Notes: generated by a model not told the origin, from the letters alone. 32,423 nucleotides of DNA from Candidatus Nomurabacteria bacterium GW2011_GWD2_36_14 (GCA_000991405.1 LBRL01000001.1:593418-625840), one strand, 5' to 3'. Counted from the first letter of the stretch, positions 6,720 to 30,674 are shown. Program-made: numbers and translations.

Positions 6720-8576
6720 TTAACCCCACTCTTCCTCTAGTTTAACAGTATCACTTTGTGGTTGTTGTTCTTTTGGTAATAATTCTATATCAACTTTTAC
6801 TGGAATATCGGATGCAAGACCTGCAATGAAGCAACTGCCAACAGAAAGTATCGGTATTGTCTGAAATGATAGCCTATCAAGGTAGGCAACTGCTTTTTCC
6901 ACTGCACCAATATCGTTATCGTTAATGAGTCTGTGTATAAAATAGTTATGTAACTGCGATATTATCGTATGTGAAATATCATAAGGTCTTTGGCTTGCAA
7001 CAGTAAGGAAAACGCCAAATTTTCGCCCCTCCTTAATTATTTCCTCAAATGTTTCAAGGCGATAATCCTTCCATGTATCACTTTCACGTTGTGACGCTGT
7101 TGATAGAATGTTATGTGCTTCATCTATAATAATATGAAGTGATGTCATTCCGTTAACCTCTTTCTTTTCGTCATAAAGTTGCTTACATACAAGAAGAGGA
7201 ATAATTTTTTTCATTTCCGTGTTTACATCTCGCAGAGAGAGAATAACAAGATTTTTTTGCCATTCAGCGTTATCTTGTATATCCACTAATTTATCAAGCA
7301 TTTTAAACTTTTTGATCATTCTACCCATCAAAGGACCAATGTGTTCTTGGTTATAGAAACCACGTGTAATAGCATAAAAATACCCAAGTATAATTTTCAA
7401 TTTCAAGCCAGAAAAATGATCTGTTTTGAAAACTGCATTATCCACGATAGGAGCTATGTAAGTATCATAAATCGGGTTTGTATTATTGAAGTTGGATGTT
7501 ACTGGTCTATTCCAATAATATTCATTACTTTGACTATGATAATGTAAATTTATTTCTATATCATCTCGTAAATTTGAAATATTGTTATTGCTTGCAATGT
7601 CAACAATATCAAGGATTCGAGAAAATAATTCTGCAATGGTTCCTTCTCGCAGTCCATTACCTTTTTTATCTAATAAGACGGTTCTACATATATCTTCTAT
7701 TCGTTCGCGTACTCGCTGAATAAAAGTAGTGGGATCATCAAGATAATCACCCTTAATTACCCAGTCTAAAAATGGCTTCTGGGTTTTTTCTGTTGCTTCT
7801 AACAATACAGCAAGTGTCTCAGTCTTATTTAAATTGTCTGTAGTTATTGGATATTTTCGTTCACTACCGCCTTTCCCAGTAGAAAGTTTATATATCTCTT
7901 TCTCCGTAGTTATAGCTTTTTTACCAGAGTATTCTCCGTTAAAATCAATTATTATAAAACGCGAGTTATTTTTAAAATTTTCATTGCCTTTGTATAAAGA
8001 AAATAATTCCGTGTATATTTTTGCAAGCGTGTTTGATTTTCCACTCCCCGTATTTCCAAAGATACCAATATGACTAGCAAATAGATCATTTACACCAAGG
8101 CGAATGCGTTGAGCTGGTTCTTCGGTGAGTCCTCCTATTTCAATTGTTCTTTTATCGCAACCTGCGAAATTATGTAAGGCAGCAAACTCGTCACGGTCAA
8201 GCAAAAAACACTCATTATCAATCAAAGGCATCTCTTTGATGCCTTGTTTAAATTTGGTTCCATCAAAATGACCAAATAGAGAAACGTCCAGAACACGGTT
8301 AATTCGGGTTTCTTCTTTGTTATAGTCGCGATTGAAGTATCTTTCTTCGCTAATTCGTTCCCCTTCAACCTTCCCAATTATGTTTACAAAGCCCTTTGCA
8401 ATTTTGACATAACTACCGACCGAAACATTTTTTACCGTAGTTCCATCATAGATTATGTGTGAGCTATTCTTGTTCTTATTAACCTTAATTGTTACCAGTC
8501 GTTTCTCAACAGATAAAACCCGTCCAATAATAAATATGGACTCCCGTTTTGCTTTATCCTCAATGTCATTCTTCAT
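6720..8576 (-). CDS. HerA-family ATPase of a SIR2-HerA defence pair
   Basis: A hexameric HerA/FtsK-type DNA translocase. An N-terminal beta-barrel (HAS) region is followed by Walker A GIFGNTGSGKSNT, a FIIIDFNGEY strand, Walker B HIIIDEAHNIL, a VASQRPYDIS sensor region and a C-terminal RLINDNDIGAV segment. Total length is about 618 residues. I place the start at ATG 8576, which overlaps the SIR2 stop by 11 nt; upstream in-frame ATGs reach 8609. Paired SIR2 and HerA proteins (the SIR2-HerA or Nezha system) form a complex that degrades NAD+ and attacks nucleic acid on phage infection. The order SIR2 then HerA with overlapping ends supports one transcript and one complex. Confidence 0.87.
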   Translation of the reverse strand: MKNDIEDKAKRESIFIIGRVLSVEKRLVTIKVNKNKNSSHIIYDGTTVKNVSVGSYVKIAKGFVNIIGKVEGERISEERYFNRDYNKEETRINRVLDVSLFGHFDGTKFKQGIKEMPLIDNECFLLDRDEFAALHNFAGCDKRTIEIGGLTEEPAQRIRLGVNDLFASHIGIFGNTGSGKSNTLAKIYTELFSLYKGNENFKNNSRFIIIDFNGEYSGKKAITTEKEIYKLSTGKGGSERKYPITTDNLNKTETLAVLLEATEKTQKPFLDWVIKGDYLDDPTTFIQRVRERIEDICRTVLLDKKGNGLREGTIAELFSRILDIVDIASNNNISNLRDDIEINLHYHSQSNEYYWNRPVTSNFNNTNPIYDTYIAPIVDNAVFKTDHFSGLKLKIILGYFYAITRGFYNQEHIGPLMGRMIKKFKMLDKLVDIQDNAEWQKNLVILSLRDVNTEMKKIIPLLVCKQLYDEKKEVNGMTSLHIIIDEAHNILSTASQRESDTWKDYRLETFEEIIKEGRKFGVFLTVASQRPYDISHTIISQLHNYFIHRLINDNDIGAVEKAVAYLDRLSFQTIPILSVGSCFIAGLASDIPVKVDIELLPKEQQPQSDTVKLEEEWG

Positions 8577-9612
8577 CTTCATGTTCATTTTGTGAATCTG
8601 GATAATCAAGAATTATGTCAGAAAGCAAAATACTTACATTATTCAAAGTATATTTATTTTCCTGTGTATCATCGACTGGAATTATTACCTCAACATTATT
8701 GTAACGTCTCTTATCAATCTCTAATAAAGTGTTATAAGAATCCTTTTTTTTCTGTGAATGAGAAAAAATATAAATACGCAAAGTTGGATTTGAATCAGCG
8801 GCCCTTTTTATAATCTCTCGAATATGTTCATCTTCCATTGAGAAACCAACCACAAACAGAACTGTATTTTCTTTTTCAAGCTCACTTGAAAACATGCGGA
8901 GTAGTTCATAATAAGTTATGTCGATGACAGTTTCTTCGAATTTTTTCTTTTCCGGATTGACAATAGCGATTTGATTATATCCTTTATCAAACTTATCTCT
9001 CAGTTTTTGTTTAAGATCTTCTTTAAAATGGTCAAGCTTTGAAAAAGTCACAACATCACCATTTTTTTTCCAGTTCAATGAGCCGTGTACTTTTAGGAGA
9101 TTTATTACGGGGATTTCTGATATATTCTCAAAATGCATACTGCGTTTAAATACTGATTTTTTGAAGTTACTTAAACTAAAACTTGCATTAAATCTGCCAG
9201 AAAACCCATCATTATACTCAATTCCACATTCTTCTAATGATATTTCCATCAAGATATCAATGTTTGTAGTAAAAACATTGGCTTGCTTGCTTAAAAGTGT
9301 ACTTTTTCGGCGGAGGAGAATATGAGCAATTGCCTTAAAGAATTTTTCGTAACTGTCCAGAGTTTTAACTAAATCTGTCTGCTTGCTTTCCTCTACTGTA
9401 CCATTGACAACATCAAGATTCGGGATCATAACACCCTTAAAATATTCCTTCTTTATTGCCCGTTTCTCATTTATATCATTGGTGTTGGTCAATCTTTCCT
9501 CGATACCATTCAAAAGTGGCAAAAAGGGATTGGATGTGCCAGCACCAAATAGAAAGTTAACATGGCAACTCTGAATAACTTCTTTTATCTCTTGTTTTTT
9601 CTTGTTATCCAT
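8566..9612 (-). CDS. SIR2-family NADase of a SIR2-HerA defence pair
   Basis: A 348-residue defence-type SIR2 protein expected to hydrolyse NAD+ and cause abortive infection. Visible motifs are the Rossmann start NFLFGAGTS, TTNIDILME (the TTNYD motif with Ile for Tyr), the catalytic His in KVHGSLNW, and the late GFSMEDEHIREII typical of SIR2_2 proteins. There is no signal peptide or membrane segment. It is the first gene of the pair and overlaps HerA at its 3' end. The 237-bp gap upstream holds a terminator but no clear TAnnTTTG promoter. Confidence 0.88.
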   Translation of the reverse strand: MDNKKKQEIKEVIQSCHVNFLFGAGTSNPFLPLLNGIEERLTNTNDINEKRAIKKEYFKGVMIPNLDVVNGTVEESKQTDLVKTLDSYEKFFKAIAHILLRRKSTLLSKQANVFTTNIDILMEISLEECGIEYNDGFSGRFNASFSLSNFKKSVFKRSMHFENISEIPVINLLKVHGSLNWKKNGDVVTFSKLDHFKEDLKQKLRDKFDKGYNQIAIVNPEKKKFEETVIDITYYELLRMFSSELEKENTVLFVVGFSMEDEHIREIIKRAADSNPTLRIYIFSHSQKKKDSYNTLLEIDKRRYNNVEVIIPVDDTQENKYTLNNVSILLSDIILDYPDSQNEHEDEE

Positions 9613-21488: not shown

Positions 21489-21932
21489 TTATTTGATGTA
21501 AAATAATCCCTTTTTATATTTTTCTAGAATCTTGGCACTCGCAGGGAATATGTTGGTAGGGATATTGTTTAACTCAAACCAATCCCAACTTATTATTTCA
21601 TCCGGTTCCATTATTTTAAGATCACCAGATATTTTCTTTGCCAACATTCCAATTGTTATGAAATGAGCATATTCATTTAAATCTAACTGAACACCAACAA
21701 TCTCAATATCTGTAATATCCAGATTCAGATTTGTTTCTTCTTTCACTTCTCTAATAGCACCTTGCTCAAATGTTTCTCCATATTCAAATTTTCCACCCGG
21801 CATTGTCCAAGTACCCTCACCTCGTAAAGCACTATCTGCTTTTTGGGGATCTGAATTTCTTAATCCTAATAACAATTTATTGTCTTGTAATATGAGCACA
21901 CCAAAACCTGTTCCAATTTTCTTTTTTTCCAT
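21489..21932 (-). CDS. Nudix hydrolase
   Basis: A 147-residue single-domain Nudix protein, which hydrolyses a nucleoside diphosphate linked to another group. The Nudix box is complete: PGGKFEYGETFEQGAIREVKEETN, matching Gx5Ex7REUxEExGU except that Asn stands near the final Gly. The N-terminal GTGFGVLIL and GTWTMPGG fit MutT/NUDT-like pyrophosphatases. The substrate cannot be predicted. It is the third gene of a - strand operon, 18 bp after the FAD gene. Confidence 0.9.
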   Translation of the reverse strand: MEKKKIGTGFGVLILQDNKLLLGLRNSDPQKADSALRGEGTWTMPGGKFEYGETFEQGAIREVKEETNLNLDITDIEIVGVQLDLNEYAHFITIGMLAKKISGDLKIMEPDEIISWDWFELNNIPTNIFPASAKILEKYKKGLFYIK

Positions 21933-21950
21933 ATACTAATAAATTTAGCA

Positions 21951-23279
21951 TTATATTAATAATGCATGCGAGCCTTCTCTCTGTTTTATAGTTGGCGAAT
22001 TCTTTAAAAAAGTGATCGCCCATTTATATCCAGAGTACATTGCTTGAATATATCCTCTTGATAGACCTGCTGCATCACCAACAATAAAAACATTATTTGA
22101 TCCACGGATTGAAAAATCTTTATTAAGTATTGGTTGTATCCAATATCTATCAATTGCAGGTGCGTAAATTCTTAAACTTTCAGAATTTACGTCGAAATTT
22201 AGAATGTTAAATTTTCCTATAAAGATTTTATGTAGTAAGTGCTGAATTAACTTTTTATGTGTATTCGTTGGAAAGTATTTTATCAATTCTAATATCTCAG
22301 AAATCATCAATTCGCGGTTGTTTGATATTGCGATATCTCCAATTATTAGTTGGTTGTTTGATAATTCGTTAATACGTTGACACCAATCTTCTATTTGCTC
22401 TAAATTAAGATGGTTATTACTTCTTGCCATTAAAGCTATGTTATTTTTATCACCAAAGGAATCTCCAAACGAGCCTTCGGCATAGAAAGAGTTACCAAAC
22501 TTTACCGGAATAACCTCACCTTTATTAACAGCACAAAATGTCCTTCCAGAACCAAGATTATCAAATGAAAATCTAAATTTAGGATCAGCTTGATAGTAAT
22601 AGTTTTTTGAGAAATTATTCTTGTGAGTTTCAATTCTGATACCAATATCTTGCTTTTGTTCTTTGTATAAGAAATTATTTTTATGAAAAAAATCTTTAAG
22701 ATAATGATATGAAGACCTACCTGTTCCAATTAGAACAAAATCACATATATAATGATTTCCATTGCTTGTGTTGATATGTATCTCCTTCTCTTTGAGGGAA
22801 ATTGAAATTACATCAGAATTTGTGATTATGTGTGAATTAATCCTATTTGTAAAAAGATTAATCATCTCACGGAATTTATTTTTATCTAATACATCAGAAA
22901 TATAGTTTTTCTTTTCAGTTGATTCCCGATTTTCTTTATTAAATGAAGGTTCAACAATATTTGATATATTCTTTTGGATATAAGAAAAAGCATTTTCAAC
23001 TATATGATTTTCTGTTTGATTAAATATATTACAGCTTGAAGGGAAATAGCAAAGTTTGTTCCCGTTCAATGCATTTGCTCCTCCCACACCTTCAGTAATG
23101 GCGCATCCACTCAAGCAATGATAACATGTATATTTTTCTGCCCCATTACATTTTCTATTTAACAACAATTCGCCTTTTTCGAGAATTACAAAATCGTCAA
23201 ACGAATTATCTAGAAGGTAATTAGCGGCAGTCAAATTACTTATGCCAGCCCCTATTAATATGATTTTATTTTTTTTCAT
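21951..23279 (-). CDS. FAD-dependent oxidoreductase (COG2509-like)
   Basis: A 442-residue flavoprotein with an N-terminal dinucleotide-binding motif (IILIGAGISNLTAANYL, then the acidic strand end VILEKG) and a C-terminal FAD motif (VFIVGDAAGLSRGYIQAMYSG). Between them is a Cys-rich segment after LLNRKCN (C-x7-C-x2-C-x3-C) and EGVGGANALNGNKL, which resembles the family of uncharacterised FAD-dependent dehydrogenases. The substrate is unknown. Its start overlaps the end of the dCTP-deaminase-like gene by 14 nt, so the two are translationally coupled. Confidence 0.82.
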   Translation of the reverse strand: MKKNKIILIGAGISNLTAANYLLDNSFDDFVILEKGELLLNRKCNGAEKYTCYHCLSGCAITEGVGGANALNGNKLCYFPSSCNIFNQTENHIVENAFSYIQKNISNIVEPSFNKENRESTEKKNYISDVLDKNKFREMINLFTNRINSHIITNSDVISISLKEKEIHINTSNGNHYICDFVLIGTGRSSYHYLKDFFHKNNFLYKEQKQDIGIRIETHKNNFSKNYYYQADPKFRFSFDNLGSGRTFCAVNKGEVIPVKFGNSFYAEGSFGDSFGDKNNIALMARSNNHLNLEQIEDWCQRINELSNNQLIIGDIAISNNRELMISEILELIKYFPTNTHKKLIQHLLHKIFIGKFNILNFDVNSESLRIYAPAIDRYWIQPILNKDFSIRGSNNVFIVGDAAGLSRGYIQAMYSGYKWAITFLKNSPTIKQREGSHALLI

Positions 23280-24363
23280 TGTTTCTTTCTTGTTTAACGG
23301 ATTTTAGAGAGTCAAGTTCTAATTTCAGACCTAATATTTTATTTTGCTGTACTTGTAAAGCCTTTAATGTTTGCTCCAAGTCATATACTTTTTGAAAAGG
23401 GTAGTCATCTTTTTCCATTGTATATTTTGAAACGGCAAATGTTAATCCTACTGACAAAATGATAGTCAATACTCCCATAAAAACTGCCATACGAATAGTA
23501 TTTCTGAAACGATTTGCTTCTAGAATTTGTGCGTAACCTTCATTTATTTTATCTCTTGTATCTTCCATTTTACTCCTAAAATCATTTTCTGCTCTTTCTA
23601 TCTTTGTAAATAAATAAGAAAGTGATCCTTCCATAACGGAATATTCAGATAAATAGCCTTCAATTGTATTTGTGTTAAATTTTTCATTTTTATTTTTTTC
23701 TATCGGGATATCTGCCATTTCAGACGTATAAGTAAATTCAACCGTTAATAATCTTTCTTTAAACGGTATCAAAATTTCTCTGTTTGTTGTGTTTTTTATA
23801 TGCCCAAATAATCGACCAGTATAATAAGGTTCAATTTGTGTCCCAGCTTGAAATTCTAAGCCCTGTAGTGCCCATTTAATTCTCAAATCAAATCTCCCAA
23901 CAATATTCCCTGGTAATTTAACTTGTTCAAAAGTTGAGAATATTATGCTGGAGTGTGCTGGAATCCTGACAACGTTATTATATGAACGGCATGATTGAAT
24001 TTGAGGTTCATCTAATTTATAGTGGGGACAAGATAGTTGTTGATAAGACATATTAAATATACAACTTCCATTGTCTTTAGGGACTGCAAATTTTTCTCCT
24101 ATTCGGAAATCATAACTAGCATTAGAATAACAATCTTCATTGATATCTCTTAGGTTATCAAATAAGATTAGGTTTTTCTCTTTAATTTCTCTTTTTGTCA
24201 AGACTCCCCTTTGAGAATTGTTTTGATAAAAGGAGGGAATACCATTTGCTTTTTCTGTTACACTATCGACTAAAATAGATTCGTTTTTTTTAGAAGCATC
24301 TTCTGCAATTGCATCATCTTCTGTTTTATCATCATTTGCAATTGTTTGCATATGTTTTTTCAT
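23266..24363 (-). CDS. Membrane-anchored dCTP-deaminase/dUTPase-fold protein
   Basis: A 365-residue protein. Residues about 60-230 follow the Dcd/dUTPase trimer fold: NASYDFRIGEKF, IPAHSSIIFSTFEQVKLPGNIVGRF, GLEFQAGTQIEPYYTGRLFGHIKN. Residues about 250-290 are a charged helix, 293-313 a membrane helix (MAVFMGVLTIILSVGLTFAV), and the tail is a coiled coil (LEQTLKALQVQQNKILGL). The position of the catalytic Glu in the bacterial deaminase (LEFYN) is held by His in GHIKN, so deamination is doubtful and nucleotide binding more likely. It is first in an operon with the FAD and Nudix genes, behind a clear promoter. Confidence 0.7.
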   Translation of the reverse strand: MKKHMQTIANDDKTEDDAIAEDASKKNESILVDSVTEKANGIPSFYQNNSQRGVLTKREIKEKNLILFDNLRDINEDCYSNASYDFRIGEKFAVPKDNGSCIFNMSYQQLSCPHYKLDEPQIQSCRSYNNVVRIPAHSSIIFSTFEQVKLPGNIVGRFDLRIKWALQGLEFQAGTQIEPYYTGRLFGHIKNTTNREILIPFKERLLTVEFTYTSEMADIPIEKNKNEKFNTNTIEGYLSEYSVMEGSLSYLFTKIERAENDFRSKMEDTRDKINEGYAQILEANRFRNTIRMAVFMGVLTIILSVGLTFAVSKYTMEKDDYPFQKVYDLEQTLKALQVQQNKILGLKLELDSLKSVKQERNNEKK

Positions 24364-24426: not shown

Positions 24427-24592
24427 TCTAATAATCAAACAAAAAAATGAATAGAACTCTCGTGAAATAAAAATAGAAAGAGAAGTAAAACGTTAAATAT
24501 CTTAAATTTTAGATAGATGAATTTTATATATAAATAGTTCTTGAAAGAATTATACCTGTTTTCTTTTTCATTTCATCAATCATCTTTATACC

Positions 24593-24964
24593 TCATCTTT
24601 TCTCAATTTTTGAAAACGTTATTGGATCAATTTTTAGAATTTTTGCAAATTTTTCTTGGGATATTCCTTTCTCAATTTTGTATTTCTTTATCGGGTTCTC
24701 ATTGAAATCGGGTGAGTACTCAAGAAATGAAATGATTTTGGGGATATAGGTTAAGTCTGGTGTATTTCTGTTTAGTTCCCAATTTGTGATTGAATCTGTT
24801 GTGACATTAATTAACTTAGCAACTTGTGATTGAGAAAGATTGAGGTCAAGGCGTCTGGTTCTTAGGTGATCGCCGTAGGTAATAAGTTCTTTGGGGTAAG
24901 GCTTGTTGTTTGGTTTTTGAGATTTAAGTTTGATATTGCAGGTGGTCAACGAAGCTAGGTTCAG
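24593..24964 (-). pseudogene. Decayed HTH tail of a serine recombinase, copy A
   Basis: The reading frame lines up with the last part of the intact recombinase at 28,773-30,674, for example KPYPKELITYGDHLR against KPYPKEFITYGDHLR, ITNWELNRNTPDL against ITNWELNRNIPDL, and KGISQEKFAKILKID against KGISQKEMARILEID. It has no ATG start (a TTG at 24949 only, with a stop just upstream at about 24,965), no catalytic domain, and a stop earlier than in the intact protein. It could be a small standalone HTH gene, but a truncated remnant fits better. Confidence 0.75.
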
Positions 24965-24986: not shown

Positions 24987-25019
24987 TTTGATTTTTTTTA
25001 TAAACATTTATTATCTTTG
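24987..25019 (+). promoter_or_regulatory. Bacteroidota-type promoter of the E2-E1-JAB operon
   Basis: TTTG (24987-24990), 21 bases, then TATCTTTG (25012-25019), matching TTTG-N19-21-TAnnTTTG. It points to the ATG at 25054, with a leader of about 28 nt, and supports translation of the small ORF as the first gene. Confidence 0.7.
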
Positions 25020-25053: not shown

Positions 25054-25185
25054 ATGCCTATTCAAGAAAAACCAGATCACCCACAGCATCCTGAACATCC
25101 ACAACACCCCGAACACCCAGGCAAGCCAATAACACCAGGACCACATAATCCGCCAAAACCTCCTGGAACTAGGCCAGTAGGATAA
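25054..25185 (+). CDS. 43-aa His/Pro-repeat peptide ending in Gly, candidate conjugation substrate
   Basis: This small ORF starts MPIQEKPDHP, then repeats HPxHPEHP units (HPQHPEH, HPQHPEHP), then a Pro/Gly part (GKPITPGPHNPPKPPG), and ends TRPVG. It has no beta-grasp ubiquitin fold and is predicted to be disordered. It lies directly behind a strong TAnnTTTG promoter and only 4 bp before the E2-E1 start, so it should be translated and coupled. By analogy with Cap2, which joins the C-terminal Gly/Ala of a CD-NTase to targets, the Gly end could be the residue activated by the E1. The His pattern could bind metal. The function is inference; the ORF and its position are seen directly. Confidence 0.7.
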   Translation: MPIQEKPDHPQHPEHPQHPEHPGKPITPGPHNPPKPPGTRPVG

Positions 25186-25189
25186 TTTT

Positions 25190-27061
25190 ATGAAGGATTG
25201 GTATAAGGAATACCCTGATTTACTTGAAAGAGAAATTAGGGTATTGAAAGATAACGGGATTTTGGTTGATGATGCCAATTTGAATCGAGGAGCTTTCAAT
25301 CGCGAAGGTGTACGCCTAATTTGTACTATTCCAGTAGAAAATAATTTAGGACTAAATCTTACTGACGACTTAAAGCTAAATATTCTTTTTCCTAGTAACT
25401 ACCCATATTTTAGACCCGATGTTTATGTAATTTCTGGTGTTGTACTACCAAGACACCACAACCCTCACGGGAAAAACCTTTGTTTACTTCCCCGACCAAC
25501 CCAGTTTTGGAATCCTGAAGATAGAATATATAAATATCTAAAAGAAAGGCTTCCTATAGTTTTTGAGAAAGGGAGGATCATAGATCAAGAAGTCATTGGA
25601 ATGGATCCAGAGGAGCAGGCTGAACCCATTTCTGAATACTATACGAATCCAACTAATGCTGTGGTTCTTAGTGCTCGTCCCGTAATTGAAAACATAGAGG
25701 TCCCGAATGATGAGGAATTTAAAGTCCTCGATCATGGAACTATACAAATATCTCATAGTCCCAATGGAGCTAAAGTTAAGTTAATTGAAACCATTATGTT
25801 CGGAGACGAGTTTTTGCCTGTTGCAGTGCTTGATGCCAATAGTGAAACATTAAAAATTGTTCTGGAGAAATGGTTTGATACAAAAGACAGAGTTATTGCA
25901 GATTTCCCGTTTAATAATTTTTTAAAATCTGAAAAAACACTCCGAACAAAATGGTATAAAATCAATTCTCTGGAGAAATTGCTTAATAAAAATGATAGTT
26001 TTAATTGGTTAATTGCTGACTTAAAGAGCAAAGGGGTCCAACAACCTTTACGTGTTGTAATTCAAACTAGAAACTATGTAATCAACCATATTGTTGGTTT
26101 GTTATTTCCAGAAGAAGAGGTTGCTGGTAAAATTGATTGGGGGTGGTTGTTATTTGTTGATGGCTATGTATTGAGAGCAAATGATCAAAAATTAAGAGTT
26201 CCTTTTCCATTTCCCATAGTTTTACCAATAATGAGTGTAGATCGATCTGAATTGTTTGTCAGAATTCCTCATTCTAAGGTTCTCAATGACAAAACTATAT
26301 CAATAATTGGATTGGGTTCTTTAGGAGCACCATCTGCATTAGAATTTGCAAAAAATGGGGTTAAAGAGTTGAGATTGATTGACTTTGATGTTGTGGAGGT
26401 TACTTCATCGGTAAGATGGCCTTTGGGTATAGAAAGTGCTGGAATGCTCAAAACGATTGCTTTAAAAAATTTTATTGAAAAAAATTATCCGGGAGTAAAA
26501 GTTAAAATATTTCATCATAAAATTGGGAGTACAGACCATATTGCCTTTCCAAATGAAAATGAAAAATTGGAAGAATTTTTCATTAGTACTGATTTAGTTT
26601 ACGATGCTTCTGCTGAAGAAGGTGTTAATAATCTTATATCCACTTTATGTAGGGAAAAGAAGATTCCCTACATCGAGATTGAGGGTAGGCGAGGTGCCTG
26701 GGGTGGAATTGTTATGAGAGCTATCCCTGAAAAAAAGAAAGGGTGTTGGATGTGCTTACAATACTCTCTTATTGATGGGACAATTACACCACCGAATGAA
26801 GATAATAATGGATTAATACAACCCAAAGGTTGTGGCGATCTAACTTTTACTGGGGCTAGTTTTGATATGCAAAATATATCTTTAGCTGGCGTGAGAATGG
26901 CCGTTTCTTCTTTGAGCAAAGAAGATAAATTAGGAGATTGGGATGTTGCTGTTTTATCAATGGTTGGTGACGAAAAAAAGCCTATAGCCCCTGAATGGGA
27001 AACTTTCGCACTTGAAATAAACTCGAAATGCCCAATTTGTAATGCAGGTAGTTTGGATTAA
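25190..27061 (+). CDS. E2-E1 fusion conjugation enzyme (Cap2/ThiF-like)
   Basis: A 623-residue protein. Residues 1 to about 150 form a prokaryotic E2 (UBC) domain with FPSNYPYFRPD and HNPHGKNLCLL, whose Cys should be the thioester carrier. A middle region (about 160-365) corresponds to the linker or inactive adenylation part of Cap2. The C-terminal E1 has ISIIGLGSLGAPSALEFAKNG and LIDFDVVEVTSSVRW (ATP site), probable zinc pairs CWMC and CPIC, and a GCGDLTFTG Cys that may be catalytic. Such fusions join a protein's C-terminus to targets, as in type II CBASS. No CD-NTase is present. The gene lies between the Gly-ended peptide (4-bp gap) and the JAMM peptidase (20-nt overlap). Confidence 0.88.
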   Translation: MKDWYKEYPDLLEREIRVLKDNGILVDDANLNRGAFNREGVRLICTIPVENNLGLNLTDDLKLNILFPSNYPYFRPDVYVISGVVLPRHHNPHGKNLCLLPRPTQFWNPEDRIYKYLKERLPIVFEKGRIIDQEVIGMDPEEQAEPISEYYTNPTNAVVLSARPVIENIEVPNDEEFKVLDHGTIQISHSPNGAKVKLIETIMFGDEFLPVAVLDANSETLKIVLEKWFDTKDRVIADFPFNNFLKSEKTLRTKWYKINSLEKLLNKNDSFNWLIADLKSKGVQQPLRVVIQTRNYVINHIVGLLFPEEEVAGKIDWGWLLFVDGYVLRANDQKLRVPFPFPIVLPIMSVDRSELFVRIPHSKVLNDKTISIIGLGSLGAPSALEFAKNGVKELRLIDFDVVEVTSSVRWPLGIESAGMLKTIALKNFIEKNYPGVKVKIFHHKIGSTDHIAFPNENEKLEEFFISTDLVYDASAEEGVNNLISTLCREKKIPYIEIEGRRGAWGGIVMRAIPEKKKGCWMCLQYSLIDGTITPPNEDNNGLIQPKGCGDLTFTGASFDMQNISLAGVRMAVSSLSKEDKLGDWDVAVLSMVGDEKKPIAPEWETFALEINSKCPICNAGSLD

Positions 27062-27503
27062 ACACAGTTTGTTTTACAAACTATTTGAAGAAACAAATAA
27101 TAAATTACCATTGGAAACGGGAGGTATGCTTTTGGGATATAAAGATGTTTATAATAATATTGTTATATCCGATCTTATCGGCCCAGGACCGAATGCAGTG
27201 CATAAAAAATATTCATTTATACCCGATGGAGAATATCAACAAAACGAGCTTACAAGAATTTATTTTGAAAGTAGCAGAATAACAACTTATTTGGGGGATT
27301 GGCATTCACATCCATACGAAAATTCGTACATGAGTTGGAGGGATAAGAAAACGCTTAAGAAAATAGCTAAAACAAAATCAGCAAGGGAACCAAATCCGAT
27401 ATTTATTATAATCGGGACAAAGACCAACGAAGCTAAATGTTGGAAGTATAATAAGGATACGTTTGAGTGCATCGAGTCGTTAGAAATTAAAGTATATGAA
27501 TAA
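27042..27503 (+). CDS. JAB/JAMM deconjugating peptidase (Cap3-like)
   Basis: A 153-residue metallopeptidase with a complete JAMM site: Glu in ETGGMLLG and GDWHSHPYENSYMSWRD (HxHPx(n)SxxD). It fits the JAB proteins that sit with E1-E2 fusions and cut the conjugates, like Cap3 in CBASS. ATG 27042 lies inside the last codons of the E2-E1 gene, a 20-nt overlap that shows translational coupling. No terminator is obvious afterwards. Confidence 0.9.
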   Translation: MQVVWIKHSLFYKLFEETNNKLPLETGGMLLGYKDVYNNIVISDLIGPGPNAVHKKYSFIPDGEYQQNELTRIYFESSRITTYLGDWHSHPYENSYMSWRDKKTLKKIAKTKSAREPNPIFIIIGTKTNEAKCWKYNKDTFECIESLEIKVYE

Positions 27504-27549: not shown

Positions 27550-27780
27550 AATGTATTTAACTGCCCCCTAGTACTCTTATCAACTTTAATTGTCATTCCC
27601 TTTTCGATTTTTGCAAGTGTGCCATGATCAATATCAAGAATCTTAGTAAATTCTTTCTTGGATATACCTTATTCAATCCTGTATTTCTTTATCGGATTTA
27701 TTTTGAAAGAGGATATATATTTAATAGATGAGATTATTTTGGGTCATAATTAATATTTGGAGTTGTCCTGTCACGAACAG
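27550..27780 (-). pseudogene. Decayed HTH tail of a serine recombinase, copy B
   Basis: On the - strand, fragments TTPNINYDPK, IISSIKYISSFKINPIKKYRIE-stop-GISKKEFTKILDID and TLAKIEKG match the HTH tail of the recombinase and copy A (NTPDLTYIPK, IISFLEYSPDF, NPIKKYKIEKGISQ). There is a frameshift and an in-frame TAA. It fills most of the 27,504-27,859 gap; nothing else is seen there. Confidence 0.8.
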
Positions 27781-27859: not shown

Positions 27860-28111
27860 ATGGCTGGATTAAGAAAAATGAGGTCTGATAAAACTGTAAA
27901 AAGTATTGAGAAGGAATTGGGTGTTTCTATGTATAAAAAAGATGGAACTAAACAACCAAAAAACAAAGTTCTTGGCACAATAAGGAAAGAAGAAGAAATA
28001 TTATCAGTTGATCAAAAAGCTGCATCAAAAAGAATCGTAAAAGTTCATCCGAAGTCGAACCCATCTACAGTCAAGAAGGTCGTGAAATCATTAAAAACGA
28101 TTAAAAAATAA
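27860..28111 (+). CDS. Small basic hypothetical protein
   Basis: An 83-residue, Lys-rich protein (GLRKMRSDKTVKSIEKELGV, NPSTVKKVVKSLKTIKK) without membrane segment or recognised fold. Its charge suggests nucleic-acid binding; I cannot identify a family. Its stop shares one base with the next start (TAATG), so it is coupled to the TIR/deoxyribosyltransferase-like gene and may be its partner or antitoxin-like regulator (inference). Confidence 0.65.
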   Translation: MAGLRKMRSDKTVKSIEKELGVSMYKKDGTKQPKNKVLGTIRKEEEILSVDQKAASKRIVKVHPKSNPSTVKKVVKSLKTIKK

Positions 28112-28743
28112 TGGCATACCCAAAATATTATACGAGTAATGTCTTTATTAATTGTCCATTTGATAGTCTTTACAAACCGATTTTTGAAGCATTGGTCTTT
28201 ACAGTTCATGATTGTGGATATATTGCTAGATGTGCAAAGGAAGTGGATGATTCTGGAGATGTTAGAATAACAAAAATAATTAGAATAATAAATGAGTGTA
28301 AATTTGGGATTCATGACATATCCAAAGCTGATTTGGATTCTGTAACGGGGCTTGCCCGGTTTAATATGCCATTAGAATTGGGTATATTTATTGGCTGTCA
28401 TCAATTCAGTGATAATAAGGGTCATAATAAAGAAAAAAAATCTCTTATTCTTGATATTGAAAGATATCGCTATCGTAATTTCATTTCTGATTTAAGCGGT
28501 CAAGATATTAAAAATCACGATAATAATCCTGAGGTAGCAATACAGAATGTTCGTGATTTTTTGGTTACAAATTCCAGGCGGACAACAATTGCCGGAGGCA
28601 GATATATTATTGGAAGGTACAATCAGTTTAGAATAGACTTGCCTACGATTTGTTTAAGTCTCCATAAAGACATTTCAGAACTTACATTTATTGAGTTTTC
28701 TGATGTTGTTACCAGTTGGATAAGTACAAATCCGATATCTTAG
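28111..28743 (+). CDS. TIR/nucleoside-deoxyribosyltransferase-like protein
   Basis: A 210-residue protein with a Rossmann-like layout: VFINCPFDSLYKPIFEALVF (first strand and helix), CGYIARCAKEVDDSGD, RITKIIRIINECKFGIHDIS (strand with Asp), then FNMPLELGIFIGC, where the Glu sits as in TIR and deoxyribosyltransferase enzymes, and FISDLSGQDIKNH. This pattern belongs to a widespread bacterial family often left unannotated. NAD or nucleotide cleavage is plausible but not shown. With the small basic gene it forms a two-gene module between HTH relic B and the recombinase. Confidence 0.65.
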   Translation: MAYPKYYTSNVFINCPFDSLYKPIFEALVFTVHDCGYIARCAKEVDDSGDVRITKIIRIINECKFGIHDISKADLDSVTGLARFNMPLELGIFIGCHQFSDNKGHNKEKKSLILDIERYRYRNFISDLSGQDIKNHDNNPEVAIQNVRDFLVTNSRRTTIAGGRYIIGRYNQFRIDLPTICLSLHKDISELTFIEFSDVVTSWISTNPIS

Positions 28744-28772: not shown

Positions 28773-30674
28773 TTACGAATCTAGTATCAAACTGGATAGT
28801 TTCATCTTTACTTTCCCTGATATTCTATCACTACTTCTTTCAATTCTAGAAAGAGTAGTCGTGTCGATTTCAAGAATTCTAGCCATTTCTTTCTGTGATA
28901 TTCCTTTTTGAATTCGGTATTGTTTTATCGAATTCTCATTAAGAGTTGGGATATAGCCTAAGAATTCAATAATTTTTGGAATCTGGTATAAGTCTGGGAT
29001 ATTTCTGTTTAACTCCCAATTAGTGATTGTGTTAATGGTGACATTGATTATTTTAGCAACTGCTGATTGATACAAGTTTAAATCAAGACGTTTCTTTCTT
29101 AAATGATCACCGTATGTTATAAATTCTTTAGGATATGGCTTTCTGTTTGGTTTTTGAGCCTTTAATTGGACATTGCAGATGGGCAATGAAACTATGAAGT
29201 TGTGGTGACCATTTGTGGGGTTTAAAGAAGAAGGGGGCATTAAGTATTTTACGTTTATGGTTACTTCTTCGGAATCAATGATTATGGATTCTGTTATGGA
29301 TTCAACAATATCTCTTTTTTGGTCTTTGGTTAAGGTGTTCCATTTGGAAAACAAGTTTTCTGCTTCAGAGAAGATATATTTACTGTTTTCTTCGTTTTGC
29401 TTTAAGGCGAGAATTTCTCCCTCTATTTGTGGTATTTGAGCTAGTATCTGCTGTAACTGCTCAAATAAAGGGCTGTAGTGGTGTTTAAAGCCTTCTGTAG
29501 GCATTTGCTTATTCAAATGAAGTTCTATCAGGTTATCAAGTTTGGATTGGATTTTTTGAGCTTCTTTTTGGCTGGTTTTTAAAAGAACTTCTTTTTCGCT
29601 CATTGTGTTGTTGTTATCTAAAATATACCTCTCAATATTTTCTTTGTAAATGGTATATTCTTGCAGTTTTGTGTAGAATATTTCTTCCAAAGTTTCTTCG
29701 GGAATTTTGTTTTTACACTTCTGGCAAGTGTATTTTGGATTGTTTGATAACAAATACATTTTAGTTCCACAATTACAAATAACATATCCAGTAAATAAAT
29801 GAGTTTTCTTATTAAGTGGTTGTTTGTTATTCTTGGCTTGCTCGGTTAAAACACCATTTACTTTATCCCAAACTTCCTCTTCGATAATAGCGGGAACGTC
29901 TTGGAAAACCCAATCATCTGTTTTCTTTAATTTCCAATGTTTGCTATCTCCTGTACTCGCTGTATAGTTTGTTCTTCTCATACCTTTGGCAATTGGGTCT
30001 TCCAAAAGTCTGACAACGGTAGTATAGGAGAACTTTGAGCCGTTTCTTGTTCTATAGCCTCTTTTGTTTAGAATTTCGGCAACGGTGTTTTTTCTTTTGT
30101 GTTCTAGAAAAAGGTCATATATAAGTTTTCGGATGGGGGCTTCGGTTTCGCTGGTGATAAGTTTTTTGTCTTTCCATTCATAACCGTATGGAGCTTGTCC
30201 TCCTAAAGGTTTACCTAGTTTGGCTCTGATTGGTATAGAGGCTGAAACTCGGTCGGCTATCTCTTCTCGTTCCCATTGAGCCATAGCAGAAATGAGAGTA
30301 TAGAAGAAACGTCCTGCTGGGCTTGAGGTATCTATACTTTCCTGTAATGAAATCAAGTCAGCGTTGTATTGTTTGAAAATGTCGGCTATTTGGAGTAGTT
30401 CTCTGGTGTTTCGGGCAAGTCTGGCAATTTTTGAGAAAATCAAGCCTGTGATTTTGCCTGTTCCGATGTCTTTCAACATTCTTTGAGCTTCAGGATGATG
30501 TAACACTGCTTTACCACTGACAGCTTCCAAATGATATACTTCTATAACTTCCCAGTCTTTTATTTGAGCGTAACTTCTTGCTCTTTGTTCGTGATTTTCT
30601 GGGCTTTCACCTTTAGCTTGGTCTTCGGTTGAAACTCTAATCCAGATACCGACTTGTTTTTTTGTTGTGTTCAT
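28773..30674 (-). CDS. Large serine recombinase with C-terminal HTH region
   Basis: A 633-residue site-specific recombinase. The N-terminal resolvase domain has the catalytic Ser in IWIRVSTEDQAKGES and the GLIFSKIARLARNTREL and MAQWEREEIADRV motifs. A recombinase domain (GGQAPYGYEW), a zinc ribbon (CNCGTKMYLL, CQKCKNK) and a coiled coil (about 345-430) follow. The last 130 residues carry two HTH-like units (YGDHLRKKRLDLNL with VAKIINV, and KGISQKEMARILEID), an unusual addition for this enzyme class. It probably integrates and excises the element or its modules. Two decayed copies of the HTH tail lie to the left in the same orientation. Confidence 0.92.
   Translation of the reverse strand: MNTTKKQVGIWIRVSTEDQAKGESPENHEQRARSYAQIKDWEVIEVYHLEAVSGKAVLHHPEAQRMLKDIGTGKITGLIFSKIARLARNTRELLQIADIFKQYNADLISLQESIDTSSPAGRFFYTLISAMAQWEREEIADRVSASIPIRAKLGKPLGGQAPYGYEWKDKKLITSETEAPIRKLIYDLFLEHKRKNTVAEILNKRGYRTRNGSKFSYTTVVRLLEDPIAKGMRRTNYTASTGDSKHWKLKKTDDWVFQDVPAIIEEEVWDKVNGVLTEQAKNNKQPLNKKTHLFTGYVICNCGTKMYLLSNNPKYTCQKCKNKIPEETLEEIFYTKLQEYTIYKENIERYILDNNNTMSEKEVLLKTSQKEAQKIQSKLDNLIELHLNKQMPTEGFKHHYSPLFEQLQQILAQIPQIEGEILALKQNEENSKYIFSEAENLFSKWNTLTKDQKRDIVESITESIIIDSEEVTINVKYLMPPSSLNPTNGHHNFIVSLPICNVQLKAQKPNRKPYPKEFITYGDHLRKKRLDLNLYQSAVAKIINVTINTITNWELNRNIPDLYQIPKIIEFLGYIPTLNENSIKQYRIQKGISQKEMARILEIDTTTLSRIERSSDRISGKVKMKLSSLILDS

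Follow-up and report, generated by a model that had tools for sequence, protein, structure and literature searches.

What does a bacterial E2-E1 fusion enzyme conjugate when the gene preceding it encodes neither a ubiquitin-like protein nor a nucleotidyltransferase, and only a peptide of 43 residues? The question is raised by an operon at positions 25054-27503 of a 32,423-nucleotide stretch of DNA (hereafter the window) from Candidatus Nomurabacteria bacterium GW2011_GWD2_36_14 (GCA_000991405.1, LBRL01000001.1:593418-625840). The operon is probably a self-contained, reversible peptide-conjugation module in which the short proline-rich peptide serves as the modifier. This supports the preliminary description of the stretch, where a short disordered peptide was proposed as the transferable tag. 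The relevant features are:

24987-25019, + strand: promoter-like site of Bacteroidota type, TTTG-N21-TATCTTTG
25054-25185, + strand: proposed modifier open reading frame (ORF), 43 residues, Pro/His-rich, MPIQEKPDHPQHPEHPQHPEHPGKPITPGPHNPPKPPGTRPVG, C-terminus NPPKPPGTRPVG-stop; an orphan, apparently disordered tail
25190-27061, + strand: E2-linker-E1 fusion gene, 623 residues; Pfam ThiF 8.9e-21, Prok-E2_B 0.0016
27042-27503, + strand: JAMM/JAB peptidase gene, 153 residues; Prok-JAB 1.8e-11, PADLOC CBASS JAB 3.4e-28

The E2-E1 gene starts 4 nt after the end of the peptide ORF, and the JAMM gene overlaps its 3' end by 20 nt. Both enzymes match the PADLOC models for the E1-E2 and JAB proteins of CBASS, the cyclic oligonucleotide-based antiphage signalling system; the Prok-E2_B match of the E2 part lies below the Pfam cut-off. 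The peptide has no match to any hidden Markov model (HMM) of Pfam, PADLOC or NCBIfam. The short ORF, the fusion protein with its HGKNLCLL, GLGSLG and zinc-pair motifs, and the overlapping JAMM gene all lie where the preliminary description placed them. Its promoter fares less well: the motif is present, but in DNA as AT-rich as this window chance alone would give 2.75 matches, against 3 observed.

The peptide gene and its relatives

A scan of genome collections returned one full-length relative of the E2-E1 protein, in Salegentibacter (44-46% identity). Searches of plasmids by tblastn added copies in Hymenobacter, Arthrobacter FB24, five Sinorhizobium plasmids of one type, Indioceanicola, pNGR234a (two copies) and Sphingobium (two plasmids). 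In a plasmid of Sinorhizobium CCBAU 05631 the E2-E1 protein is split over two ORFs, and in an Iamia plasmid (locus L011:3257-5055) the annotation gives the E2-linker and E1 parts as separate genes with a 4-nt overlap; this split is either natural or due to a frameshift. Altogether there are 14 loci with an intact E2-E1 gene (the window and 13 others), two split loci and one degraded locus in Rhizobium, from Bacteroidota, Alphaproteobacteria, Actinomycetota and the Patescibacteria-like host of the window, at least four phyla. When the Arthrobacter protein was used as query in turn, the same loci came back and the next matches stood at only E ~1e-6, so the family is well delimited. It is rare and mostly plasmid-borne: samples of 397 Flavobacteriaceae, 395 Bacteroidota and 380 host-phylum genomes yielded no member beyond Salegentibacter and the window. 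A further Flavobacteriaceae match proved to be a MoeB-like gene, relatives of the host gave only weak partial ThiF-type matches, viral contigs contained no E2-E1 relatives, and phages gave a single weak match confined to the E1. A Caballeronia match was left out, as no intact E2-E1 gene or peptide was found with its JAB-like frame.

At every homologous locus found, a Pro/Gly-rich ORF of 43-59 codons lies directly 5' of the E2-E1 gene, at a spacing of -8 to +6 nt (+32 in Iamia). This bears out the earlier expectation of a short upstream ORF with a conserved Gly end and a variable body. Proline makes up 30-46% of these peptides. All end in RPVG, RQVG or KHVG, apart from the Hymenobacter peptide, in which RPVG is followed by QQ. 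Their bodies differ and the last 10-14 residues are kept, V-G most strongly; what defines the family is this C-terminal block, PPxPPx(x)RPVG. The VG end persists although E2-E1 identity falls to 25-28%, is encoded by many different codon pairs among the loci, and is retained even at the degraded Rhizobium locus. Full peptides include those of Salegentibacter (MSKPETPGKPDQPGKPNQPGRPDKPVKPEPKPHNPPKPPGTRPVG), Arthrobacter (MAGKPENPEHPQHPEHPEHPQHPEHPEHPDTPQGPPNPPVPPGPRPVG, with a GTG start), Sinorhizobium meliloti (MSKPPSSGIPGHTPPGPPPGVPGRPDGVPPGPKDPPQPPDRPVG) and Sphingobium (MNSNNGNPPGHPDHPQHPDVPKGPPSHTPGRPDGPPVPSNPPPHRPVG); NGR234 copy 1 ends in ...SVPPKVPPKHVG and the Hymenobacter peptide in ...HNPPKPPKDRPVGQQ. 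Peptide types follow the E2-E1 tree: PHNPPKPP is common to the window, Salegentibacter and Hymenobacter, and PSHTPGRPDGPPVPS to Sphingobium and NGR234 copy 2. A Shine-Dalgarno-like site of GGAG type precedes the proteobacterial and actinobacterial peptide ORFs.

The nucleotide changes between related peptide genes bear the mark of selection on the protein. The 14 C-terminal residues are identical between the window and Salegentibacter, with six synonymous and no non-synonymous differences. Between Sinorhizobium americanum and S. meliloti, the peptide codons show 21 synonymous and 4 non-synonymous differences (proportions pS 0.63 and pN 0.058), the changes falling 3/3/23 by codon position; between Sphingobium and CCBAU 05631, pS is 0.77 and pN 0.039. 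None of 20,000 simulations gave as few amino-acid changes as observed. On this comparative evidence, the ORF at 25054-25185 encodes a genuine protein under selection, which accompanies its enzyme from locus to locus and is presumably translated. When a DNA pattern for PPxPPxxRPVG-stop was run against 395 Bacteroidota genomes, the only match was the Salegentibacter operon, and the reversed control gave none. Seven matches of the pattern in viral contigs are due to chance, with no E2-E1 gene 3' of any.

The His/Pro repeat, taken at first as a hallmark of the peptide, does not hold as one: only some bodies are His-rich. As metal-resistance genes surround the Hymenobacter and Arthrobacter loci, the HPxHP repeats were considered as possible metal-binding sites; the idea was set aside because the peptides of Sinorhizobium (main type), Iamia and Indioceanicola have a single His. 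Those surroundings, which include DUF305 proteins, may only reflect plasmid content. Likewise, Lys-linked chains of tags are excluded as a general feature, because the Iamia peptide contains no Lys. The peptide gene is called in Hymenobacter, as a hypothetical protein. Most other records miss it or do not list it, and such a system would have escaped notice for that reason.

Conjugation enzymes and the substrate slot

The enzymes of the window appear complete. The E2 part carries His89 and Cys98 (codon 25481-25483, in HGKNLCLL). The E1 part carries GLGSLG (GxGxxG) at 374-379, D398, R409, K421, D472 and Cys548 (codon 26831-26833), together with the zinc pairs C519/C522 and C614/C617 (CWMC, CPIC). 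The JAMM protein carries E25, H88xH90, S98 and D101, with the signature WHSHP...SxxD. Among the 9-10 E2-E1 homologues compared, E2 His89 and Cys98, GxGxxG, D398, R409, K421, D472, Cys548 and zinc ligands C519, C522 and C614 are invariant, and within the family so are JAMM E25, H88, H90, S98 and D101. With the exception of the Cys548 loop, the catalytic positions of both enzymes align with those of type II CBASS proteins. The intact E2 cysteine argues for transfer to protein, and the intact JAMM active site for reversal.

In a tree built without one long-branch CBASS row, the E2-E1 proteins of the peptide operons fall on one side of a branch, away from those of CBASS, of metallo-beta-lactamase (MBL) systems and all others (support 81/95). 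The window JAMM protein shares its active-site residues with Cap3 and scores 52 bits against the NCBIfam Cap3 model (cut-off 200), and the window proteins score 39.9 and 71.5 bits against the 6A-MBL model (cut-off 320).

In type II CBASS operons from Klebsiella, Phaeobacter, Roseobacter, Gloeocapsa, Deinococcus and Agrobacterium, the position directly 5' of the E2-E1 gene is held by a cGAS/DncV-like nucleotidyltransferase (CD-NTase). These proteins all end in G or A, most with a short Pro-containing tail (for example PVTPNKSAGFA, RPTEPKGFG and PKKPGGFA). The slot gene ends in G or A in all outgroup E2-E1-JAB operons examined, including a partner of metallo-beta-lactamase type ending in DDKPMG. 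In the peptide family, this slot contains nothing but a tail.

The absence of a CD-NTase claimed in the preliminary description withstood wider searches. No DncV-like nucleotidyltransferase was found in the host genome, the Salegentibacter genome or 12 plasmids, and SMODS gave no match in either genome and none above cut-off in the plasmids; the positive controls, CBASS plasmids of Klebsiella and Gloeocapsa, were both detected. A single SMODS-like match below cut-off lies 1 kb away on the opposite strand in Sinorhizobium chiapasense. The 31 neighbouring proteins include no ubiquitin-like or ThiS family among the matches listed (25 of 39 Pfam families), nor do the neighbours have a cyclic-nucleotide-activated effector family in common. 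Neither kind of protein thus emerged as a consistent partner. The conserved module consists of three genes, because among the families listed the neighbours share nothing but helix-turn-helix (HTH) domains.

Two further loci concern the slot in other systems. On a Sphingobium baderi plasmid (NZ_CP128177.1, L028:27-3856), the slot of an E2-E1/JAB operon holds a 219-residue protein without a Pfam match, class III nucleotide cyclase-like by eye, ending in ...VTPTKPAGFA in the manner of CBASS CD-NTases and followed by a cNMP-binding and TIR effector (PF00027, PF10137). This locus may be a Pycsar system whose cyclase is conjugated in ubiquitin-like fashion. On a Hymenobacter swuensis plasmid (L036:533-4522), an MBL-type protein ending in ...RLDDKPMG lies upstream of an E2-E1-JAB triple fusion and may itself be a Gly-ended conjugation substrate.

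Mechanism, alternatives and mobile setting

If the peptide is the modifier, its conserved block PPxPPx(x)RPVG would be bound by the E1 domain, which would adenylate the terminal Gly and transfer it to Cys548. The peptide would then pass from E1 Cys548 to E2 Cys98, which would join the Gly to amino groups of target proteins, most likely lysines. The JAMM protein would remove the tag from its targets and trim precursors with residues after the Gly, such as RPVG-QQ of Hymenobacter. The variable peptide body may serve as an unfolded polyproline spacer. The module looks like CBASS machinery acting on a tail without a globular domain, because its CBASS relatives conjugate the tail of a CD-NTase encoded in the same slot. 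It also seems rather likely that a complete E1-E2-JAMM system tags proteins with a modifier that has no fold and is recognised through a linear C-terminal motif alone, and that its range of at least four phyla extends to a Patescibacteria-like cell.

Several points weigh against a conjugated peptide. A translational-arrest leader would present the same picture: a short, Pro-rich ORF, conserved at its C-terminus and coupled to the gene that follows. Support for the clade of peptide-operon E2-E1 proteins is only moderate, and the loop around Cys548, a residue invariant inside the clade, cannot be aligned with CBASS Cap2. AlphaFold2 models of the E2-E1 and JAMM proteins have pLDDT values of 37 and 50, too poor for them to serve in fold searches. 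No downstream effector common to the loci was found. Adenylation, the thioester and isopeptide steps, the targets, a role in defence, and transcription and translation themselves are all deduced from sequence.

The alternatives differ in what they make of the short ORF. That it is a chance open frame before an ordinary E2-E1 gene would suit its small size, low complexity, frequent lack of annotation and lack of an HMM match. This is refuted, because the ORF is conserved in the sister loci and across phyla, its changes are biased to third positions with an excess of synonymous ones, and none of the simulations gave so few replacements. A more serious alternative is that the ORF is a regulatory leader, whose Pro-rich end stalls the ribosome and controls E2-E1 synthesis, the true substrate being a cellular or phage protein. 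The tight coupling (-8 to +32 nt), the polyproline and the concentration of conservation at the C-terminus all fit arrest leaders. E1 function, however, requires a substrate with a C-terminus to activate; all outgroup slots examined provide one ending in G or A, and a leader would leave this clade without any. Moreover, the terminal V-G is the best-conserved element, and Hymenobacter keeps the motif despite the QQ that follows RPVG, so that a leader role appears quite unlikely.

The peptide could also be the precursor of a natural product or a sulfur carrier, adenylated or thiocarboxylated by the E1 and processed by the JAMM protein with no attachment to protein. E1-like enzymes that act on short peptides do exist (MccB, PaaA), and PaaA is a weak match in the PDB. 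Such a role is unlikely in view of the complete E2 domain with its invariant His89 and Cys98, of a JAMM protein nearest to Cap3-type isopeptidases and of the neighbour Pfam matches listed, among which no transporter, immunity or tailoring gene is common to the loci. Finally, the operon could be a relative of type II CBASS with its CD-NTase elsewhere in the cell and the peptide a minor accessory, given that the E2-E1/JAB architecture and the catalytic residues are common to Cap2/Cap3 and that a weak SMODS-like gene lies near the Sinorhizobium chiapasense locus. The searches of genomes and plasmids described above, in which the controls were detected, the separate E2-E1 clade and scores far under the Cap3 and 6A-MBL cut-offs make this very unlikely.

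A role of the peptide-conjugation module in defence is plausible, because it occurs on mobile DNA, with RES-Xre pairs beside four loci and a SIR2-HerA pair about 15 kb away in the window. The host genome is 803 kb, of which the operon contig represents 704 kb, and bacterial core genes lie on both sides (by eye dnaA, dnaN, ruvB, ruvC, yidC / ruvA, mutM). Recombinase sequences surround the operon:

24593-24949 (repeat 24586-24949), - strand: HTH (Cro/C1) ORF divergent to the operon; HTH_3 8e-16
27601-27743, - strand: third, degraded copy of the recombinase 3' end, directly 3' of the operon; repeat family D2
28773-30674, - strand: large serine recombinase with a C-terminal HTH; Resolvase 5e-30, Recombinase 1e-18, HTH_3 2e-16

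The recombinase is the probable mobiliser of the element. The HTH ORF is a copy of its C-terminal part, in a 300-nt direct repeat of 70% identity, with 63% protein identity to recombinase residues 494-625, and is possibly a regulator or a recombination remnant. The operon thus has a partial copy of the recombinase 3' end on each side and looks like an inserted cassette. The three 3' (HTH) ends enclose two cargo blocks, the peptide operon and 27860-28743, in what looks like serial accretion of cassettes at the recombinase 3' end. The second block encodes an 83-residue Lys-rich protein without a family match and a 210-residue protein with a sub-threshold CAP12/Pycsar TIR match (0.052).

The SIR2 and HerA defence pair occupies 6720-9612 (- strand) of the same mobile region. 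A cluster at 21489-24363 (- strand), encoding a 365-residue dCTP-deaminase-like protein with a hydrophobic segment, a flavoprotein-like reductase and a Nudix-type protein, is a possible nucleotide-depletion defence. Elsewhere in the family, a divergent RES-Xre toxin-antitoxin pair lies 5' of each of four loci of one sub-branch (L012, L017, L018 and L026).

Comparison with known conjugation systems

According to a 2025 review of E1 enzymes, known E1/E2 pathways use beta-grasp modifiers with the sole exception of Cap2/CD-NTase, and more systems may hide behind non-canonical substrates (PMC12355090). The operon fits that prediction, with a modifier about as small as can be conceived. No description of a peptide-tag system was found in the open-access literature, in agreement with the earlier remark that none was known; subscription papers (e.g. 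Gong 2025) may contain one. If the proposed reading is correct, neither a beta-grasp nor any other globular domain is necessary for E1/E2 chemistry, and an unfolded peptide tail takes the part of a folded ubiquitin as a protein tag in bacteria. It would isolate the recognition requirement of the E1 as a linear tail, connect ubiquitin-like tagging with CD-NTase conjugation in evolutionary terms, and offer a compact enzymatic tool to attach and remove a short peptide tag. With three small genes, the module is small enough for direct tests.

The peptide module is not filed under CBASS, Bil/Bub or 6A-MBL, because each fails a tested defining feature. It resembles type II CBASS in its E2-E1 fusion, overlapping JAB gene, catalytic residues, upstream gene with a Gly/Ala end and association with mobile elements. 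In CBASS, Cap2 links a terminal Ala or Gly to lysine and Cap3 removes it without a scar (PMC10097602, PMC11153139). The peptide operon differs in having no CD-NTase or nucleotide-sensing effector, a domain-free substrate of 43-59 residues and a separate E2-E1 clade. With Bil, Bub and Iyer types 6d-6e it shares an E1, an E2, a JAB protein and a small operon-encoded protein with a C-terminal Gly. Their modifiers, however, have a beta-grasp fold, whereas the peptide here is disordered, Pro/Gly/His-rich and too short for one, and its E2 and E1 form one protein. The 6A-MBL systems combine the same E2, E1 and JAB modules with an upstream partner gene (...DDKPMG in Hymenobacter swuensis), but as a triple fusion with an MBL; the peptide operon has a separate JAB gene and no MBL neighbour.

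Small intrinsically disordered modifiers are known in Pup and UBact, which are attached by PafA-type ligases, not by E1/E2, and have no E2-E1-JAMM operon; such a ligase is not among the three genes of the operon, and no search aimed at PafA was made. The E1-like enzyme MccB of microcin C7 adenylates a short linear peptide, as proposed here, with an antibiotic as product and no E2 or JAMM protein.

The survey of Iyer in 2006 listed a Rhizobium NGR234 plasmid and Arthrobacter sp. under E2-E1 and JAB operon types 6b/6c, with a pol-beta nucleotidyltransferase or a metal-binding protein as partner and no mention of a short peptide (PMC1779556). Members of the peptide family are carried by pNGR234a and an Arthrobacter plasmid. 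The window, 13 further intact loci and two split ones combine a short Pro/Gly-rich ORF ending in [RK]xVG, an E2-E1 protein of one clade (A1) and a JAMM protein. The enzymes are of a kind already known; it is the modifier that would be new.

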